Assembly: GCA_013054445.1 (NCBI GenBank)
Contig: JAAMPI010001511.1
Coordinates: 1 to 13,556 of the forward strand
Source: Cudoniella acicularis
Lineage: Eukaryota > Ascomycota > Leotiomycetes > Helotiales > Helotiaceae
Direction of reading: 5' to 3'
DNA length: 13,556 nucleotides
Below, piece by piece: positions 3,780 through 13,541 of the stretch. Both the position numbers and the translations under genes were made by a program. How positions within the stretch are numbered: the first letter of the stretch is position 1; every line of letters starts with the position of its first letter. The notes under the pieces were generated by a model that was not told the origin of the DNA, ran no database searches, and saw only the letters and a list, made by a program, of their open reading frames with translations.

Positions 3780-5288
3780 ATGCCTTCAGTTACAATCAAC
3801 GGCGACAGTGACAGTCATGCCAAAAATGGATCATCATCGCAGGGGCTTAACTTGACAGTGCTTGGATTGAACAGTGGCACCTCCAGTAACCAATCCTTCT
3901 CTCTGTCTCGCTTCCCTGATTTTGCGGTATTGGGTTTCCCGATCTGTGTTTCATTTTCCTCGGTTTTCACTTTCTTAAGAAAACATGGTACTAATTCCCT
4001 GTAGTGGTATTTATACTCTATATCCAGAAGAAGCGGAATTTGACATTAGTAGGATGGTATCGACTGTGCACTTTGCAGGTTTCGACAGGACACACCAACA
4101 TCGCCAATGCATTTTGAGCTGCTGAAATACAGCGAAATTCCTCTGGAACAAACAATCAAGAAGCGAGTCATGAAAATTATTCTTCACAATACCACTACGC
4201 CAGAAGAACTCAGCGAAGTCAACGTTTTGCTGGGAGAGACTTTTGCATCTGCTGTCAAGCAGTTCACGAAAGAGAATGGTCTTCAGCTAACCGACATCGA
4301 CGCACTGGGATCTCACGGGCAAACAATCTGGCTCTTTTCCATGCCCGAAGGTCAGGTGAAGTCTGCCCTAACAATGGCAGAGGGCTCCATACTCGCTGCA
4401 CGAACTGGCATCACCTCCGTAACGGATTTCAGGGTATCAGACCAAACAGCTGGCCGTCAAGGTGCTCCTCTGATAGCTTTCTTTGATGCTCTTATACTCC
4501 ACCATTCCACCAAACTGCGTGCTTGCCAGAACATTGGCGGTATTGCAAATGTCTGCTTCATTCCGCCGGACAGCGAGGGTGGTGTCGATGAATGCTTCGA
4601 TTTCGATACTGGGCCAGGTAATGTCTTCATCGACGCAGTTATTCGTCACTACACAAACGGGGAACAAGAGTATGGCAAGGACGGCGCTATGGGTAAAAAA
4701 GGCCGCGTTGATCAGAAACTCGTCGATGGCTTCTTGACGCACAAGTACTTCAAATTGGAAACCCCAAAAACTACAGGCCGGGAAGTGTTCCGAGACACTC
4801 TTGCATTTGAATTCATCGCAGAAACCGAAAAGAGAGGGCTAAGCCCCGACGACGTTGTGGCAAGCATCACCAGAGTCACCGCACAAGCAATCGTCGAGCA
4901 CTACAACAGATACGCACCTTCTCAAGATATTGACGAGATCTTCATGTGCGGCGGAGGAGCCTTCAACCCAAATATCTTGGACTTTATTCGAAAGATCTAC
5001 CCCAATACGAAGATCATGATGCTTGATGAGGCAGGAATTCCTGGTGGAGCAAAGGAGGCTATCACTTTTGCATGGCAGGGAATAGAGGCTATTATTGGTC
5101 GATCAATTCCTGTTCCTACCAGAGTCGAGACAAGAGCTGAATTTGTGCTGGGAAAATTCTCTCCTGGGAAGAACTATAGGGAGGTCATGAGAAAGGGGAT
5201 GTTGTTCGGCGGCAGTGTGGATCATCTTGCTCCCGTGAAGGAGCTTGTGAATTATGCTAACGGGAAGGCTTTCAACAACAAATGGTAG
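3780..5288 (+). CDS. Anhydro-N-acetylmuramic acid kinase (AnmK) / levoglucosan kinase family protein
   Basis: A cytosolic sugar kinase that, in characterised relatives, opens a 1,6-anhydro ring and phosphorylates O6: anhMurNAc to MurNAc-6-P in bacterial AnmK, levoglucosan to glucose-6-P in the yeast Lipomyces enzyme. Sequence alone does not decide the substrate. My model is 3780-3885, a 2-nt exon 4005-4006, and 4053-5288, giving 447 aa. Motifs in this numbering: GLNSGTS-M-DGID (29-40, nucleotide binding), SHGQT (123-127), DFR (161-163), NIGGIAN (196-202), DTGPGN (221-226, with the Asp equivalent to the AnmK catalytic base), CGGGAFNPN (335-343). The main exon alone encodes [12 protein letters not shown] upstream of the ATG at 4107, so that ATG is not the real start. 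No signal peptide is seen. Length fits fungal members, longer than the ~370-aa bacterial enzyme. If no microexon is used, the alternative is a frameshifted gene. Confidence 0.88.
3886..4052 (+). other. Twin-intron arrangement with a 2-nt microexon
   Basis: Exon 1 ends ...ACC TCC A before GTAACC, and the conserved next codons GAT GGT ATC GAC start at 4053. One intron 3886-4052 or 3886-4049 breaks the frame. Two introns fix it: 3886-4004 (branch-like TACTAAT at 3989-3995, acceptor CTGTAG) and 4007-4052 (donor GTATTT), leaving TG at 4005-4006. The join reads TCC A-TG GAT GGT, i.e. S-M-D-G. The second acceptor is a TAGTAG tandem; using the first TAG (4047-4049) would put an in-frame TAG stop after the Met. 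A one-base insertion near 4050-4052 in a single 164-nt intron is the main alternative. Confidence 0.55.
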
Positions 5289-5725: not shown

Positions 5726-5792
5726 ATAGTGGCGAAGGCTTAGAAATATAGGGGGCAAAGCCTACAAATACAGGGTGGCGGTGCTGAGAAAT
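5726..5792 (+). repeat. Degenerate ~22-bp tandem repeat
   Basis: Three successive units occupy 5726-5747, 5748-5769 and 5770-5792 (22, 22 and 23 bp). Each follows the pattern AYAGNGGC-AAG-CT-AGAAAT. The next base run begins the MITE-like element, which opens with the same ACAG. A related, longer unit lies at about 5662-5697, and another directly precedes the second element copy at about 7138-7170. Confidence 0.55.
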
Positions 5793-5898
5793 ACAGTGAT
5801 TACTCACTGTAAGCATACGCTGGAACCTTCTGTATGAGTCACATTAGGTGGCAATAACAGGGCCTTCAGACCTATATATATAGCGCACTTCTCACTGT
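5793..5898 (+). mobile_element. MITE-like element, copy A (TA-flanked)
   Basis: This 106-bp element begins ACAGTGA and ends TCACTGT, an inverted terminus, with TA on both sides (5791-5792 TA; 5899 begins A after the terminal T, reading CTGTA). TA flanks suggest a Tc1/mariner or pogo-type non-autonomous element. The 5' end is itself a perfect hairpin, ACAGTGA-TTAC-TCACTGT (5793-5810). The copy at 7171-7274 has the same orientation and is about 86% identical. It has no coding capacity. It sits exactly where the SAT4-like gene on the minus strand stops resembling its family. Confidence 0.6.
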
Positions 5899-6550: not shown

Positions 6551-7170
6551 TATGAGCTAGCCTTTGTGAAACTTGGAATGGAGGTCTTTGTTGATGAGAC
6601 GAAATGTGTACAGCGCGAAGAACGAGAGTCCCGGTGTCGTTTTTCTTTTTGACTTGTATTATCTAATAAAAGGTGTAAAGGGGGCGGTGGAGATACAGCC
6701 AATTGTAGTGAAAATGTGAGCGTGATATGGACAGCCAGACACAATCTCATTTCAAAATGAAAATGCATCTAGCTTAAGATGTGCCGATAATCTGCTTGTC
6801 AACTGCCGGCCTTACACACGGAGAATTAATTCAAGGGCGTCGGAGGCCCAGAGCGTCGCCTATGCACTTTTATCTCAAAAGGATTCAAGTCAATCGCTCA
6901 CCGCCAGTATGCAAGGCCATGCAGAAAATTGAGGTTGGTGCATGGCAACGAACCCATGATGGATGATATTCTCTGGTCAAATTCACGTTGTAGGGCGCAG
7001 AAATGGGCTTATTGCAAATTTCATAATTGGAATCCTTTACCAGCCCCGTTCTTCTGTCGACTGCTATGTAAGAATAGGAAGGTAGATATAGATGTTACAT
7101 TGTTGCGTGACCAACTAACAGGCTGTAGCTGCGTTGGATATGGTGGCAAGGCTCTGTAAGCATTAGAAAT
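6551..7170. other. Flank of the SAT4 relic, no gene recognised
   Basis: The region upstream of the SAT4-like relic presumably held its promoter. Two open frames on the plus strand (6781-6966 and 6929-7159) show no recognisable domain. The last ~33 bp (about 7138-7170) are a GGTGGCAAGGCTCTGTAAG-type unit related to 5662-5697, so the repeat block extends to the left of copy B. Confidence 0.5.
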
Positions 7171-7274
7171 ACAGTGGCTAATCACTGTAAGCACACACTG
7201 GAATCTTCTGTATGAGTCATATTAGGTGGCAATTATAGGGCCTCTAGGCCTATATATAGCGTACTTCTTACTGT
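7171..7274 (+). mobile_element. MITE-like element, copy B
   Basis: This 104-bp copy is the direct repeat of 5793-5898. By eye I count 14 substitutions, 12 of them transitions, plus one 2-bp indel. The left terminus ACAGTG is kept with TA before it; the right terminus is decayed to TTACTGTG. The transition bias fits RIP or deamination. Together the two copies bracket ~1.27 kb that includes the SAT4 relic. Confidence 0.6.
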
Positions 7275-8848: not shown

Positions 8849-11800
8849 TTAGGGTTTCAGCTGTTTCGAGGACCTCACAAGCTGTTCCGTGATTTTTTGG
8901 ATCCCCTCCAGGCTAGTGGCATTTTCATGCTCAAAGAATTTCCACACTTGGAGAAAGCGATCCGATCCACTGCCCTTACACAAGACCTCAAAGATATCTT
9001 TCATACTTAACCGCAGATCCTCCCTTTCCAGCACGGGTTTCGGCAGCATCTCATTGCAGTAAAGAATGTGAGCGGCCAAACCAGCCGCCAACGCCGTGGA
9101 GATGGAGCTCCCTGTCTCGTTGGTGAGCTTTCCGTTTGTAGGGTTTTTGGTTATAATCTTGTCGCCGGGCAGATAGAAGCCATCCTTTTGGTTCGCAAAC
9201 TCGGCTGGTCTCCCGGCTGATGTGGCGGCGGCAATCGAGATGGTATCTGACCGGGCAGCGAAGAAGTTTGGCTGCTGCGCGACGTCGCCGTCACGGTGAG
9301 CGCAGAAGACTACTATCTTCTTGTCCTGGGCACGGCGGAGCGCTGTGTTCAGGGCGGCGGTCTCGGTGTCGTCATAGTCGAGGGAGAGACTCATGGTGAT
9401 AATGTCTACGCCCATGTCTATCGCCCAGTTGATAGCCTTTCGACACAGTTAGCAGTCACCCTTGTTAGCATTTGTCCAACTATGTTTGAAGTTGACACAT
9501 GTCTAGCTAGACTTGGGCTCTTAGCTTGAGGAATGGGAAATGTGAGACTGGAAGTTGGAGATAGGTTTTCTTACGCGCCGGACCGATCTTGCTGTGCACA
9601 TCCGGTGCCCTGAATTGATGAAGTCATGGACTCGAGCAACATAGAAGACGGTCTGGGGGGATAAACTTTGAGCGAATCTGGCCATTAAAGTTCCATGCCC
9701 ACCTGCGCCCACAAAGAATTCCAAGTCATCATCTCCTTCACAAAATGACTTGCCTTTACCAATTTTGAGGCCGGGGAAAGGAACGTCAATACCATCGTCG
9801 ATAATAGCTACTTTCACCTTCTCATATTGCTTTCGGGAGTATTCATCGCCGAGGAAGTCCTCGAGGTGTATCGAGAACTTGTGCATATGCTGATACCAGA
9901 GATTACTAAACAGTTGACAGTCAGACTGGGGAATTTGTTGCTTGTAAAGCTGTGTTGGAACCATAAAAAAGGAGCATACTTGTTATCTGGATCGCCCTTG
10001 CCGTCTATACCACCCGGCTCGCTGATTCTTCCTTCAGTTGGAGCTGTCATGTGCTTTGGCCGCTCCACAAAATCGAAAGTTATCTCCCTCGAAATCCGAC
10101 CCGATGTGGATGGGTTTCTGCTTCCCCTCTCCCCTGTGAATTCTTGGGCCTCCTTCCATTTAAGGCAGTACGAACGCGTTGACGTATCATGCGGGAGTGG
10201 CTCCATCACGGCTTCACTGTCTCTATCTTTCCGTTTCCTCTCCAGCATCCGGTTGAGAAATTCCACCCTATATGTTCGAATCCTTTCCTTCGATAGGGGG
10301 GTCTATGTAAATTAATTATCCGACTTACGAATATCCAGCTATGAAGTGGCTTACTGTAAAGAAGGTGATTTTGACAGATTCCAGTTTCTATAATGCATAT
10401 AAGTGTTTAAATTCGTAGTAGAGAGAATATGGGGGTGGTGGAAGTTGGACACGCACCTTTAGGCATTGGAGGCCCCTCTTCGATGACCAGTGGTCAAGGA
10501 CAGTTTTCTTACCACTGGAGTACAAGCACAGGTCCTTGATGTCTGGACACAGATTGGAGATGAATACATCTTCCCTCTGCCAATCCAGACTGTCAATGGT
10601 CAATCCCTGTAGGCAGTCTTCGATCAAGCCATCGCAGTGATCTTGTGTGCCCATATCAGCAACGGCCAGGTTTAAAATCCGTGTCACCTTTTTGTCGCGA
10701 AGATAGTCGAAGAACTCGAGGTGGTGTTCGGAGCCGTTGAGCGCAGGTAGGCTGACCTTGCTGAGGATCGACTCGAGGGGCAGGTGTAGGTCCTTTTTGA
10801 GGCAATCAATAAATGTTTTGTCAATTTGTTTGTCTACCAATCTACCAAGTTGGAGTCGTAGGTGGCGATGAGGCCCTTCACATGGATAGCTTATTAGAGA
10901 ATGAGGTTGGAGTCAAAAGTGGAGTGTGCTCGTACCTATCTCGGGATATTTGTACAAATGTGCTTCCGCGTCATCGTTATCCAGCTCTTTAATGACATAG
11001 TACTTCAACAACTCTATGATTTTTTCATGAGAGGGTGTATGGGGAGCTTCACTTGACCTTGTTGTCAAAAGCTGGTACGGTGATTTCACATTATGGTCCT
11101 CGGCGGTTAGGGCACTGGGCCATTTTCCCACTAGTAGCTGAACCACCCCCGCATCAGGCGACGTGCGCTGTACCGCAAGATGTAAGGGGGTCTTTTTCTC
11201 GTGCTTGCTGACCATACCCAAAACCTTTTTGTCCACCAAAAGAATGACTTTCATTATTGTGGCCTTGGAAAGCTTCGGATTCTCGAGAGCGAGGTGCAAA
11301 CACGTCTTGTCCTCCTTTTGGGTGGTTTCAAGAGCCGTTACTAAACCTTCAACAGGAGGGACCTCATTGAGAATTCTGCTAAGTAGATTCTCTGACTCGC
11401 TAGCAACATTGTGCATGAAGGTTAGACCATTCATATCAGGCTCGCGCATGATTTGGGGGTATTTCTTAATGATTAGCAGGATAAGGTCCTCCCAGCACTC
11501 GATCTTCCTCATAGATTCCTCATTTTTCGTGTCTTGGGCTTTGTTGGGGTCTCTGTTCCTCTCCGGGCCACTGAACTCCCGGGCTACAGAGTCCTGGTCC
11601 TTGACATCGACGTATTCGGTGTCCTCATCGGGATCGTCATCGGAATCCTCATTGAGATCCTCGTCGGAGTCCTCGTTGGCATCCTCGTCAATGTCGTCCT
11701 CAATAGGGTCTTCGACATCTTCATCTATTTTAGAACGGTTTATTCGGATTCGAGACTTCTCCTCTTCCACATCATTGAATAGTTTGTGAAGGATAGTGCC

Positions 11801-12010
11801 ATGACGGTGGCTATTTAACAGGAAAAGAGGAATCTTCCATCCATCCAGGGAAAATTCAGCCGGGGAAGGGCCGCTTTTAAGGTGGTGCTCTTCGAATGCT
11901 TTGACAAGCTGGCTGTGTTTTTCGCTTGCAGATGGATGAGGTCTAAAAACCTTTGGCGTCTTGGCGCGGTTTCCTCGCCTGGACGCTGGTGTCGTTGTGT
12001 CCTTTCCCAT
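8849..12010 (-). CDS. Ankyrin-repeat subtilisin-like (S8) serine protease, intracellular
   Basis: My six-exon model is 10936-12010, 10457-10875, 10355-10387, 9980-10302, 9575-9905 and 8849-9436, giving 922 aa in one open frame. Order of parts: basic N-terminus; first ankyrin-like segment (~60-80); acidic Asp/Glu linker (~96-133); ankyrin repeats (~193-315, e.g. TPLHLAV at 274-280); a conserved middle region (~375-510); a charged linker; and a Peptidase S8 domain (~645-860). The catalytic triad is visible: Asp653 in AIIDDGID, His687 in GGHGT, Ser838 in GSSIST. The usual oxyanion Asn is not seen; its place reads FCAHRDGD (771-778). There is no signal peptide or propeptide, so it should act in the cytoplasm, with the repeats sensing or binding a partner. 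Such repeat-subtilases occur in fungal self/non-self recognition and cell death. Less certain points are the intron 10876-10935 acceptor (10834 also keeps frame) and the 138-nt intron 9437-9574. Confidence 0.85.
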
Positions 12011-12228
12011 AGCTGTGATGCGCGTGGTGGATACAGAGGGGATTAGATGTAAATGTAAAACGCGGGGGAAGTTTTTTATGCTCGACTCGTCGGAATCACA
12101 TAAGCAAGAAGCCCATCAGCTCTCTTGCTTCTAAATTGCCCCCACCCTGCGGTAGCCGAACTGGATATACGAAGTATCGATACCTAGTGCCAGCCTTAGT
12201 ACCTTAGCACATGCATTTCTTGCATGAT

Positions 12229-12449
12229 GGATGTATATGCCGTAAGACGAGGCTTTGCCTACCTGCAGCCAGCCTGGGGGTGGGTTATCTCCTTGCCTGT
12301 CCAGAATTGCCTGCTACCCCTCACTTGCTGAGTTGGATATCTCCATATCCAGGGCTCTGCATCTCTCTGTGTGATGTTTGCATTTGGATGCATATGTGTG
12401 TGGCAAGACGAGGCTCTGCCAGCCTGCAGTCAGCTCGGGGGTGTGTTAT
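12229..12449 (+). repeat. Direct duplication of a ~60-bp promoter block
   Basis: Copies 12229-12288 and 12386-12449 share GGATGYATATG, then AAGACGAGGCT, TGCC, CCTGCAG, CAGC and GGGGGTG-GTTAT. They are spaced about 157 bp apart. Only the downstream copy runs into TATAAA; the upstream copy continues TTATCTCC. A promoter-element duplication is the simplest reading. Confidence 0.65.
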
Positions 12450-12452
12450 AAA
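12447..12452 (+). promoter_or_regulatory. Candidate TATA box for the 299-aa gene
   Basis: TATAAA lies 190 bp upstream of the ATG at 12642, directly after the second copy of the duplicated block. The distance allows a 5' UTR of roughly 150 nt. Confidence 0.4.
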
Positions 12453-12583
12453 GGCCTGCTATGTCTCATCTTTGCCCGGGCAGGCTTGGAGTTTCCTCTC
12501 AGACTTTCTTCTTTCCGCCCCGTGGTCTGACGCCAGCCTTCGGATTTCGAATTCACCAGCCCGCAGATATCGATCATCGATAC

Positions 12584-12611
12584 CTCAGCCCTCAGCCCTC
12601 AGCCCTTAGCC
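12584..12611 (+). repeat. Heptamer tandem repeat, four units
   Basis: CTCAGCC occurs three times in tandem, followed by the variant CTTAGCC, ending 30 bp before the ATG at 12642. It probably lies in the 5' UTR. Confidence 0.7.
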
Positions 12612-12641
12612 GGCGGCTTCCCCTCTCCCCCTCTGGTGAAG

Positions 12642-13541
12642 ATGAGCAGCGCTGCCAGTCCGATTGAGGGGGTCGAGCCCTGGTTAACGATTCCCCTGGA
12701 GCAGACGGCAGGCGGAAGTTTCCATACGCGTGAGGGGGCCGTAAAGCAGGCACAGGAACAACATAGCACGATGATTGACTATGGCGCGCGGCTCATCGTC
12801 CAGGCCGAGCTTGGCGATGTGGTCCATGGATACATGAATGAAAATGGGGATGCGGCCACGCTGCTGGTCATTTCCTTCCGCTTCTTGAGCCCGAGCCGCC
12901 AACGTCGTTTCCGGCAGGCCGAGATCGAGGTTCAATTCAACGACCAGCTAGGCCGACACGACCACGACCCGGAAGTCGTTAGGGTGGCCCCGGACGGCCA
13001 TTTCCAGCTCAACCCCACAACACGTCTCGAAGAGACCAGCGTGAGCGCCGGAGTCGGCATCCAGGGCGGGCCGGCGACCGGTTTCATCAGCGTGGGCGCG
13101 CAGGCCACCTGGGAGCGCCGCAAGACTCTAGAGTTCACCGATGCCACGTCGCTGACAGGCAGCCGCCACCGCCGGGGCCGCAACTACGGCGCCATGAACA
13201 CGATGCGCTTGGTGATGGACGAGAACCCGGGCCAGAAAGACGGCGTGCCCTCACAGCTCCGCGGCCTGGTGATGCTGAAACGAGACGCCCCCGACGCCCC
13301 ATTTCTGATGCAGTTGCGCGTCAAGACCGTCGTTGATGTGCGCTACCGCATTGGCGAGCTGCTTCAAACCTGGGTCGGCAGCCGTATCAAAGCCGACCCA
13401 GTATGTTTCGACCCGAACCGGGAGCCGGCCCGAGGCCTCCGGGGCTCCGGCAATGTATGGGACCTTTCGGGCCTCGACCGCAACAATCTCGCCGATGTCA
13501 ATCTTGCCGAGCTGTGCAACCTCGACATCACGAACCCTTAG
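12642..13541 (+). CDS. Hypothetical beta-rich protein, candidate protease-partnered cell-death effector
   Basis: An intact intronless frame of 299 aa from ATG 12642 to TAG 13541; the GTG six bases earlier is not used. I do not recognise a named domain. Visible features: an N-terminal ~50-aa segment; alternating hydrophobic/polar strands (LIVQAEL at 51-57, ATLLVISFRFL at 72-82, AEIEVQF at 93-99); PDGHFQLNPTTR (117-128); a Gly/Ala/Ser-rich stretch with alternating pattern at ~132-157, the sort seen in membrane-inserting beta-hairpins; TDATSLTGS (166-174); ENPGQKDGVPSQLR (194-207); and a C-terminal ~50-aa tail with DPVCFDP (252-258). There is no signal peptide or TM helix. The gene is clearly GC-richer than its neighbours. 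Its divergent partner is an ankyrin-subtilase, a layout reported for fungal gasdermin-like genes. Size fits that class, but homology is not shown, and it may be an unrelated fungal family. Confidence 0.7.
   Translation: MSSAASPIEGVEPWLTIPLEQTAGGSFHTREGAVKQAQEQHSTMIDYGARLIVQAELGDVVHGYMNENGDAATLLVISFRFLSPSRQRRFRQAEIEVQFNDQLGRHDHDPEVVRVAPDGHFQLNPTTRLEETSVSAGVGIQGGPATGFISVGAQATWERRKTLEFTDATSLTGSRHRRGRNYGAMNTMRLVMDENPGQKDGVPSQLRGLVMLKRDAPDAPFLMQLRVKTVVDVRYRIGELLQTWVGSRIKADPVCFDPNREPARGLRGSGNVWDLSGLDRNNLADVNLAELCNLDITNP

Follow-up and report, generated by a model that had tools for sequence, protein, structure and literature searches.

According to the portions of the reviews available to us, protease-triggered pores in fungi use gasdermins as their executioner. 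Fungal gasdermin and protease genes form two-gene clusters in which the protease, of the S8 or CHAT class, often carries ANK, TPR or WD40 repeats (PMC12881547; PMC10197012; PMC10989679), and about 63% of fungal gasdermins have been reported to be clustered with S8 genes and 19% to lie near CHAT genes (PMC10197012). RCD-1 of Neurospora crassa is a gasdermin described as being triggered by an allelic partner, with no cleavage involved (PMC12881547). In the HET-Q2/HET-Q1 system of Podospora anserina, as in the locus described here, a small single-domain effector gene adjoins a multidomain S8/CHAT protease gene. This locus lies on a contig of Cudoniella acicularis (JAAMPI010001511.1, assembly GCA_013054445.1), of which the whole stretch of 13,556 nucleotides, hereafter the window, was examined (G000:C569, in a 53.2-Mb genome of 1836 contigs). 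It encodes an intracellular-looking protein of 299 amino acids (P0001) and, divergently, an ankyrin-S8 protease; the same genome holds a homologous second pair and a CHAT-linked relative. We propose, with a probability of roughly 0.6, that the two genes of the window form a protease-triggered cell-death pair whose executioner has a hemolysin fold instead of being a gasdermin. Sensing, cleavage, pore formation and killing by this pair are steps that we infer by analogy.

The two genes start on either side of a common promoter region of 631 bp (12011..12641) that spans the gap between their start codons, which face away from each other. P0001 lies on the plus strand (12642..13541), its coding frame (12642-13538) running over 299 codons from an ATG without interruption and its stop codon ending at position 13541; beyond the open frame, it is supported by an AlphaFold2 model, by structural matches and by homologues. 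The protease gene, the candidate sensor and activator, occupies 8849..12010 on the minus strand in six exons; it rests on a hand-made model, on Pfam matches to S8 and on a homologue beside the paralogue P0041. Its product counts 922 amino acids, the very figure given by an earlier sequence-only reading of the window, which had also described the divergent pair with its 631-bp interval, the intact frame of 299 codons and a soluble-looking product, all of which we found again. No 19-residue stretch of either product reaches the hydrophobicity typical of a signal peptide or a membrane helix, the highest 19-residue Kyte-Doolittle means being 0.96 and 1.35 for the two products, and no hydrophobic stretch was found at the N-terminus of P0001, as judged by Kyte-Doolittle mean and without a dedicated signal predictor. 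The promoter region also contains two degenerate direct copies of a sequence about 90-100 bp long (12220-12311 and 12378-12476). Their local alignment scores 40; 200 base shuffles reached no more than 22.

The pairing recurs in the same genome. On contig C1241, a homologue of P0001 (P0041; E 1e-21) is divergent from another ankyrin-S8 gene, 557 bp from the first frame of the latter, and the proteases of the two loci are homologous as well (E 1.9e-32 over the S8 part; 27% identity and E 2.9e-13 over a middle domain). Since both homologues are present there in the same divergent order, the arrangement of the window exceeds chance. On contig C1728, a distant paralogue (P0003) lies 355 bp from the first of three frames, here taken as one gene with a CHAT (caspase-like) domain in the third frame; the protease genes of C1241 and C1728 were read as frames, not as exon models. 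The sequence-only reading had suggested counting how often relatives of the small protein adjoin protease genes. This count, restricted to five family members of this one genome found by searches with four family proteins, places 3/5 of them in a head-to-head arrangement with protease genes, of which two are ankyrin-S8 and one is CHAT. The layout of a sensor-protease beside a small effector is thus borne out by the homologous pair and the CHAT-linked member. The genome holds at least 32 S8 and at least 8 CHAT loci (merged from 37 and 9 matches), and a simple model puts the chance of finding three of five members with a protease neighbour within 5 kb at about 1e-5. As the window pair had been chosen for its layout, the figure was also computed with this pair excluded, and two of four would still be expected by chance at only about 6e-4 under the same model. 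Together with the homologous second pair, these figures make it extremely improbable that the pairing is incidental and that the 299-amino-acid protein has an unrelated housekeeping role, even if the family is uncharacterised and the members scanned gave no convincing match in Pfam or NCBIfam.

Regarding the nature of the small protein, the sequence-only reading had considered that it might be a gasdermin and had proposed comparing its predicted fold with gasdermins and other pore formers. AlphaFold models were obtained for P0001 and for P0003, whose subfamilies are homologous by profile comparison (9 rows for that of the window vs 34 rows; probability 98%, E 2.2e-13, 223 columns). Among the PDB matches listed by Foldseek at E<=0.001, 8/8 chains for P0001 and 49/49 for P0003 are of the alpha-hemolysin/leukocidin type, and the same fold fills 50/50 rows among the matches listed by VIA-align for each model. 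Gasdermins are absent from the matches listed by both programs for both models. For P0001, the chains ranked 9-14 by Foldseek, above E 0.001, are also of hemolysin type (six chains) and are followed mostly by mixed beta-sandwich proteins. The P0001 family is hence predicted to have a hemolysin-type beta-sandwich fold, at an aligned identity to hemolysin/leukocidin structures of 4-13% (VIA-align), and the models make P0001 a candidate pore-forming executioner with a predicted hemolysin/leukocidin fold.

The stretch rich in Gly, Ala and Ser to which the sequence-only reading had drawn attention (here placed at residues 131-161; 13032..13124, plus strand) is, by its position in the model and its composition, a predicted pre-stem hairpin, which would enter the membrane. 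In the P0001 model it is flanked by strands 119-130 and 162-176; at the equivalent place, the P0003 model shows a long hairpin (107-129 and 134-159). When an alignment of P0001 and its nearest relatives (nine rows) was scanned in 28-residue windows, G/A/S/T content peaked in those starting at residues 126-137 (0.49-0.50 vs a mean of 0.31) and charge was lowest in those starting at residues 131-136 (0.10-0.13 vs a mean of 0.25), which bears the stretch out.

Several features of the models weigh against this assignment. Both are only middling in confidence, with a mean predicted local distance difference test score (pLDDT) of 62.5 for P0001 (predicted template modelling score, pTM, 0.64) and of 69.8 for P0003, and pLDDT falls below 50 in the Gly/Ala/Ser stretch of P0001 and over residues 112-147 of the P0003 hairpin. 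For the chains at E<=0.001, template modelling scores (TM-scores) are low, at 0.20-0.32 when normalised by the model, and Foldseek root-mean-square deviations (rmsd) are 9-29 Å, the rmsd given by VIA-align for P0001 being 3.6-8.1 Å. Moreover, a beta-moment scan shows no peak at the predicted stem, and a fold in common with hemolysins does not prove pore formation. The likeness of fold could be real and a pore function absent, the protease guarding or releasing P0001 as a beta-sandwich protein that acts as decoy, inhibitor or substrate, a reading favoured by a similarity that is at fold level only, by the low TM-scores and by a stem whose pLDDT is mostly under 50 and whose beta-moment has no peak. 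We regard it as distinctly unlikely, given that the segment at the stem position is rich in Gly, Ala and Ser and poor in charge, and that the strong matches listed are specific to pore formers instead of being scattered over many beta-sandwich families.

If P0001 were a very divergent fungal gasdermin and, like HET-Q1 with HET-Q2, were cleaved by the protease encoded next to it, its similar size and a layout matching that of the fungal gasdermin clusters reported in the accessible part of PMC10197012 would follow naturally. Sequence searches of the PDB were carried out with three profiles of the family, and returned no chain for that of 37 rows (E<=10), six for that of five rows (E<=10) and two for that of nine rows (E<=1), none of them named as a gasdermin or as a pore former. 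With single sequences (E<=1), P0001 found no chain and P0003 one, which by name is neither a gasdermin nor a pore former. A WD40 match of the five-row profile (2ymu, E 5.6e-5) was dismissed, as it sums many sub-threshold repeat matches of which none is significant singly. In contrast to these profiles and proteins, an open reading frame (ORF) of the same genome that adjoins an S8 gene on contig C261 and served as a control matches the HET-Q1 pore (9uv9, E 1e-4) and RCD-1 (8jyz, E 1.4e-4). A second control points the other way: a partial gasdermin-like ORF on contig C1673 matches nothing in the PDB at E<=1, so the PDB sequence test alone is not decisive. The genome has at least five such gasdermin-like ORFs, whole or partial, beside other S8 genes (contigs C261, C1673, C1766, C1008 and C335), each of which has at least one blastp match among the others, with an E of about 2e-4 or lower, some pairs being unmatched. 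No alignment of the P0001 family with these five ORFs was obtained (best blastp E 0.24; hhalign probability 0.1%), and all PDB chains found by Foldseek at E<=0.001 are of hemolysin type. We thus rejected gasdermin membership of P0001 on sequence tests, of whose controls one was positive and one negative, and consider this alternative highly improbable. Because the gasdermin-like ORFs do not align with the P0001 family, both kinds of effector appear to stand beside S8 genes in one genome. The gasdermin-like ORFs were read at L015 256-1233, L018 3-947, L021 3148-3642, L023 379-879 and L039 2-580, and several have an upstream part that resembles a kinase by eye.

Membership in the bacterial leukocidin sequence family was likewise tried and rejected, there being no curated sequence-family match: hmmscan found no pore-forming toxin family for P0001 (Pfam, E<=1), for three paralogues (Pfam, E<=0.1) or for four members searched against NCBIfam (E<=1). 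Of the death pair as first conceived, the layout of sensor-protease and small effector is supported and the gasdermin identity of the effector is not. What fits best is the fallback offered in the sequence-only reading, that of a new family of effectors sharing this layout, with the predicted fold of hemolysin/leukocidin pore formers.

The protease gene was spliced by hand, without transcripts, into six exons on the minus strand separated by five GT-AG introns of 52-138 nt, with other possible splicings for introns 1 and 4 at least. Exon 1 (10936..12010) encodes an acidic run and weak ankyrin repeats (residues 227-295), and exon 2 (10457..10875) a middle domain found by comparison in the C1241 S8 protein and, by eye, in those of contigs C1123 and C1030. 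They are followed by exon 3 (10355..10387), of 33 nt, by exon 4 (9980..10302) and by exons 5 (9575..9905) and 6 (8849..9436), which together hold the S8 domain (Pfam Peptidase_S8 on residues 646-856, E 2.2e-17). The ankyrin match is weak in the window protease (Ank_2 on residues 227-294, E 4e-4, under Pfam's own cut-off); in the C1241 gene, the first frame exceeds the cut-off (34.8 bits vs 27.3). Asp653 and His687, in exon 5, and Ser838, in exon 6, occupy the places expected for the Asp/His/Ser triad of subtilases, these positions and that of the oxyanion hole being assigned by what we take to be the subtilase motifs. Two further S8 genes, at L032 (C1123) and at L045 2251-5469 (C1030), have the middle domain in common with the window protease by eye; that of C1030 carries weak ankyrin repeats, and in that of C1123 the oxyanion-hole Asn position is apparently replaced.

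The catalytic site and the neighbourhood survey bring further arguments against a protease-triggered pair. The position aligned with the oxyanion-hole Asn, which is Asn in the C1241 homologue, is Arg775 in exon 6 of the window protease. With that replacement, the activity of this enzyme could be slow, weak or lost. Among the five family members, that of contig C50 has no S8 or CHAT match anywhere on its contig, and that of contig C1019, a shorter and divergent ORF, has only short ORFs in the pieces read beside an AT-rich stretch, these pieces being taken without a Pfam scan. Conversely, no family member was present within the 9.9 kb read around the ankyrin-S8 gene of C1030, and searches with family proteins found none on the C1123 contig, which has a similar S8 gene. 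All evidence from neighbourhoods, finally, stems from one genome and no other fungus. Another reading is that P0001 is a hemolysin-fold pore former activated without the neighbouring protease, by an allelic partner, a lipid or oligomerisation, the protease being used otherwise, for instance in removing P0001. Two of the five paralogues lacking a detected protease neighbour, the missing oxyanion Asn and the activation of RCD-1, which is reported to need no cleavage (PMC12881547), all agree with this explanation. We nevertheless judge it unlikely, as three head-to-head pairs involve two unrelated protease classes and one of them repeats the window pair homologously. Next to the C50 paralogue lies a large group of frames that resembles a gene and gave no convincing match in Pfam (L006 6675-9991); it is possibly another kind of sensor.

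In the protease-triggered pair that we favour, the ankyrin-S8 protein would be an intracellular sensor-protease whose ankyrin or middle region would detect a trigger such as a non-self partner, an invader or damage. Until then, the hemolysin-fold partner would be kept inactive as a soluble monomer. The triggered S8 domain would clip this 299-amino-acid partner, our guess being that one end is removed, and the clipped protein would swing out its Gly/Ala/Ser-rich pre-stem, assemble into a ring on the membrane of the fungus itself, at the inner face, and insert the stem hairpin. The opening of a beta-barrel pore would then kill the hyphal compartment.

Such a pair resembles several known systems, each in part. 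Like clusters of the HET-Q2/HET-Q1 type, it has repeats on the protease, here weakly matched ankyrin repeats, and the window pair is without visible secretion features; unlike theirs, its effector is predicted to have a hemolysin fold and shows no sequence relation to gasdermins that could be detected. With the bacterial alpha-hemolysin and leukocidin toxins, P0001 would have in common a beta-sandwich and a central hairpin at the stem position, both predicted, whereas it is fungal, shows no signal-peptide-like start and no sequence-family match, and is encoded by a protease-paired gene. RCD-1 is, as is proposed for P0001, a small protein that executes fungal cell death by forming pores from within the cell, but it is a gasdermin with an allelic trigger that reportedly acts without cleavage, and it shows no sequence match to the P0001 family. 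Aerolysin-family proteins, K62/KTA1, are reported in yeasts and other ascomycetes and described as a killer toxin (PMC12691639). They too are fungus-coded beta-barrel pore formers recognised through structure prediction, a class for which P0001 is a candidate; they differ in belonging to the aerolysin family, and the available part of that paper mentions for them neither a hemolysin/leukocidin-type fold nor a pairing with proteases (PMC12691639). A word search for hemolysin, leukocidin and aerolysin in PMC12881547, PMC10197012, PMC9815663, PMC10989679 and PMC13304501 found no mention, and searches of an open-licence library, preprints not included, yielded no pair of hemolysin-fold and protease genes, an earlier report being possible.

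More broadly, we see slightly better than even odds that fungi have a second, pyroptosis-like executioner independent of gasdermins, i.e., an intracellular hemolysin-fold family unlocked by adjacent S8 or CHAT sensor-proteases, and that this module drives at least two unrelated pore-forming executioners in one genome. If true, a pore fold resembling that of toxins has been adopted inside the cell for regulated lytic death, the protease sensors can be exchanged as modules, and surveys of genomes for gasdermins alone overlook part of the fungal death repertoire.

Regarding the extent of the family, a search with the single sequence of P0001 returned one relative, a protein of 306 amino acids from Amylocarpus encephaloides with 50% identity. 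Profile searches gave 40 and 8 proteins at E<=0.001, two of them in common, i.e., 46 records counting P0001. Most records are nameless; those bearing an organism name come from Amylocarpus, Cudoniella, Leptodontidium, Lojkania, Vezdaea, Dactylonectria, Fusarium, Cladorrhinum and Gaeumannomyces, all of which we take to be ascomycetes. With members in named ascomycetes (e.g., Fusarium, Dactylonectria and Gaeumannomyces), the family is therefore testable genetically in laboratory ascomycetes. P0033, P0039 and P0040 were excluded from all alignments, and P0036 was excluded from A5 and A6 and retained in A2. P0033 (494 amino acids) has an extra C-terminal part (about residues 280-494) without Pfam match, possibly a neighbouring gene fused by gene prediction. 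In the P0003 subfamily, the C-terminal tail (..EPI..LP.GYS or GYN) shows strong conservation up to the last residue and is a candidate inhibitory or recognition tail. No relative emerged from one scan of viral contigs and two of bacterial and archaeal genome contigs, each guided by one or two short peptide patterns.

Elsewhere in the window, a plus-strand frame at 4107-5288 encodes an anhydro-N-acetylmuramic acid kinase, AnmK (Pfam E 2.9e-78), in this fungal genome; its 393 amino acids begin at position 29 of the profile, and an upstream exon is therefore likely. A sugar transporter of the major facilitator superfamily (Pfam Sugar_tr, E down to 7.2e-24) is broken over several frames on the minus strand (799-2501). 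Finally, a direct repeat of 94 bp (5787-5880 and 7165-7258), whose copies are 87% identical and 1378 bp apart, lies outside the frames of at least 100 amino acids and is possibly a short mobile element.

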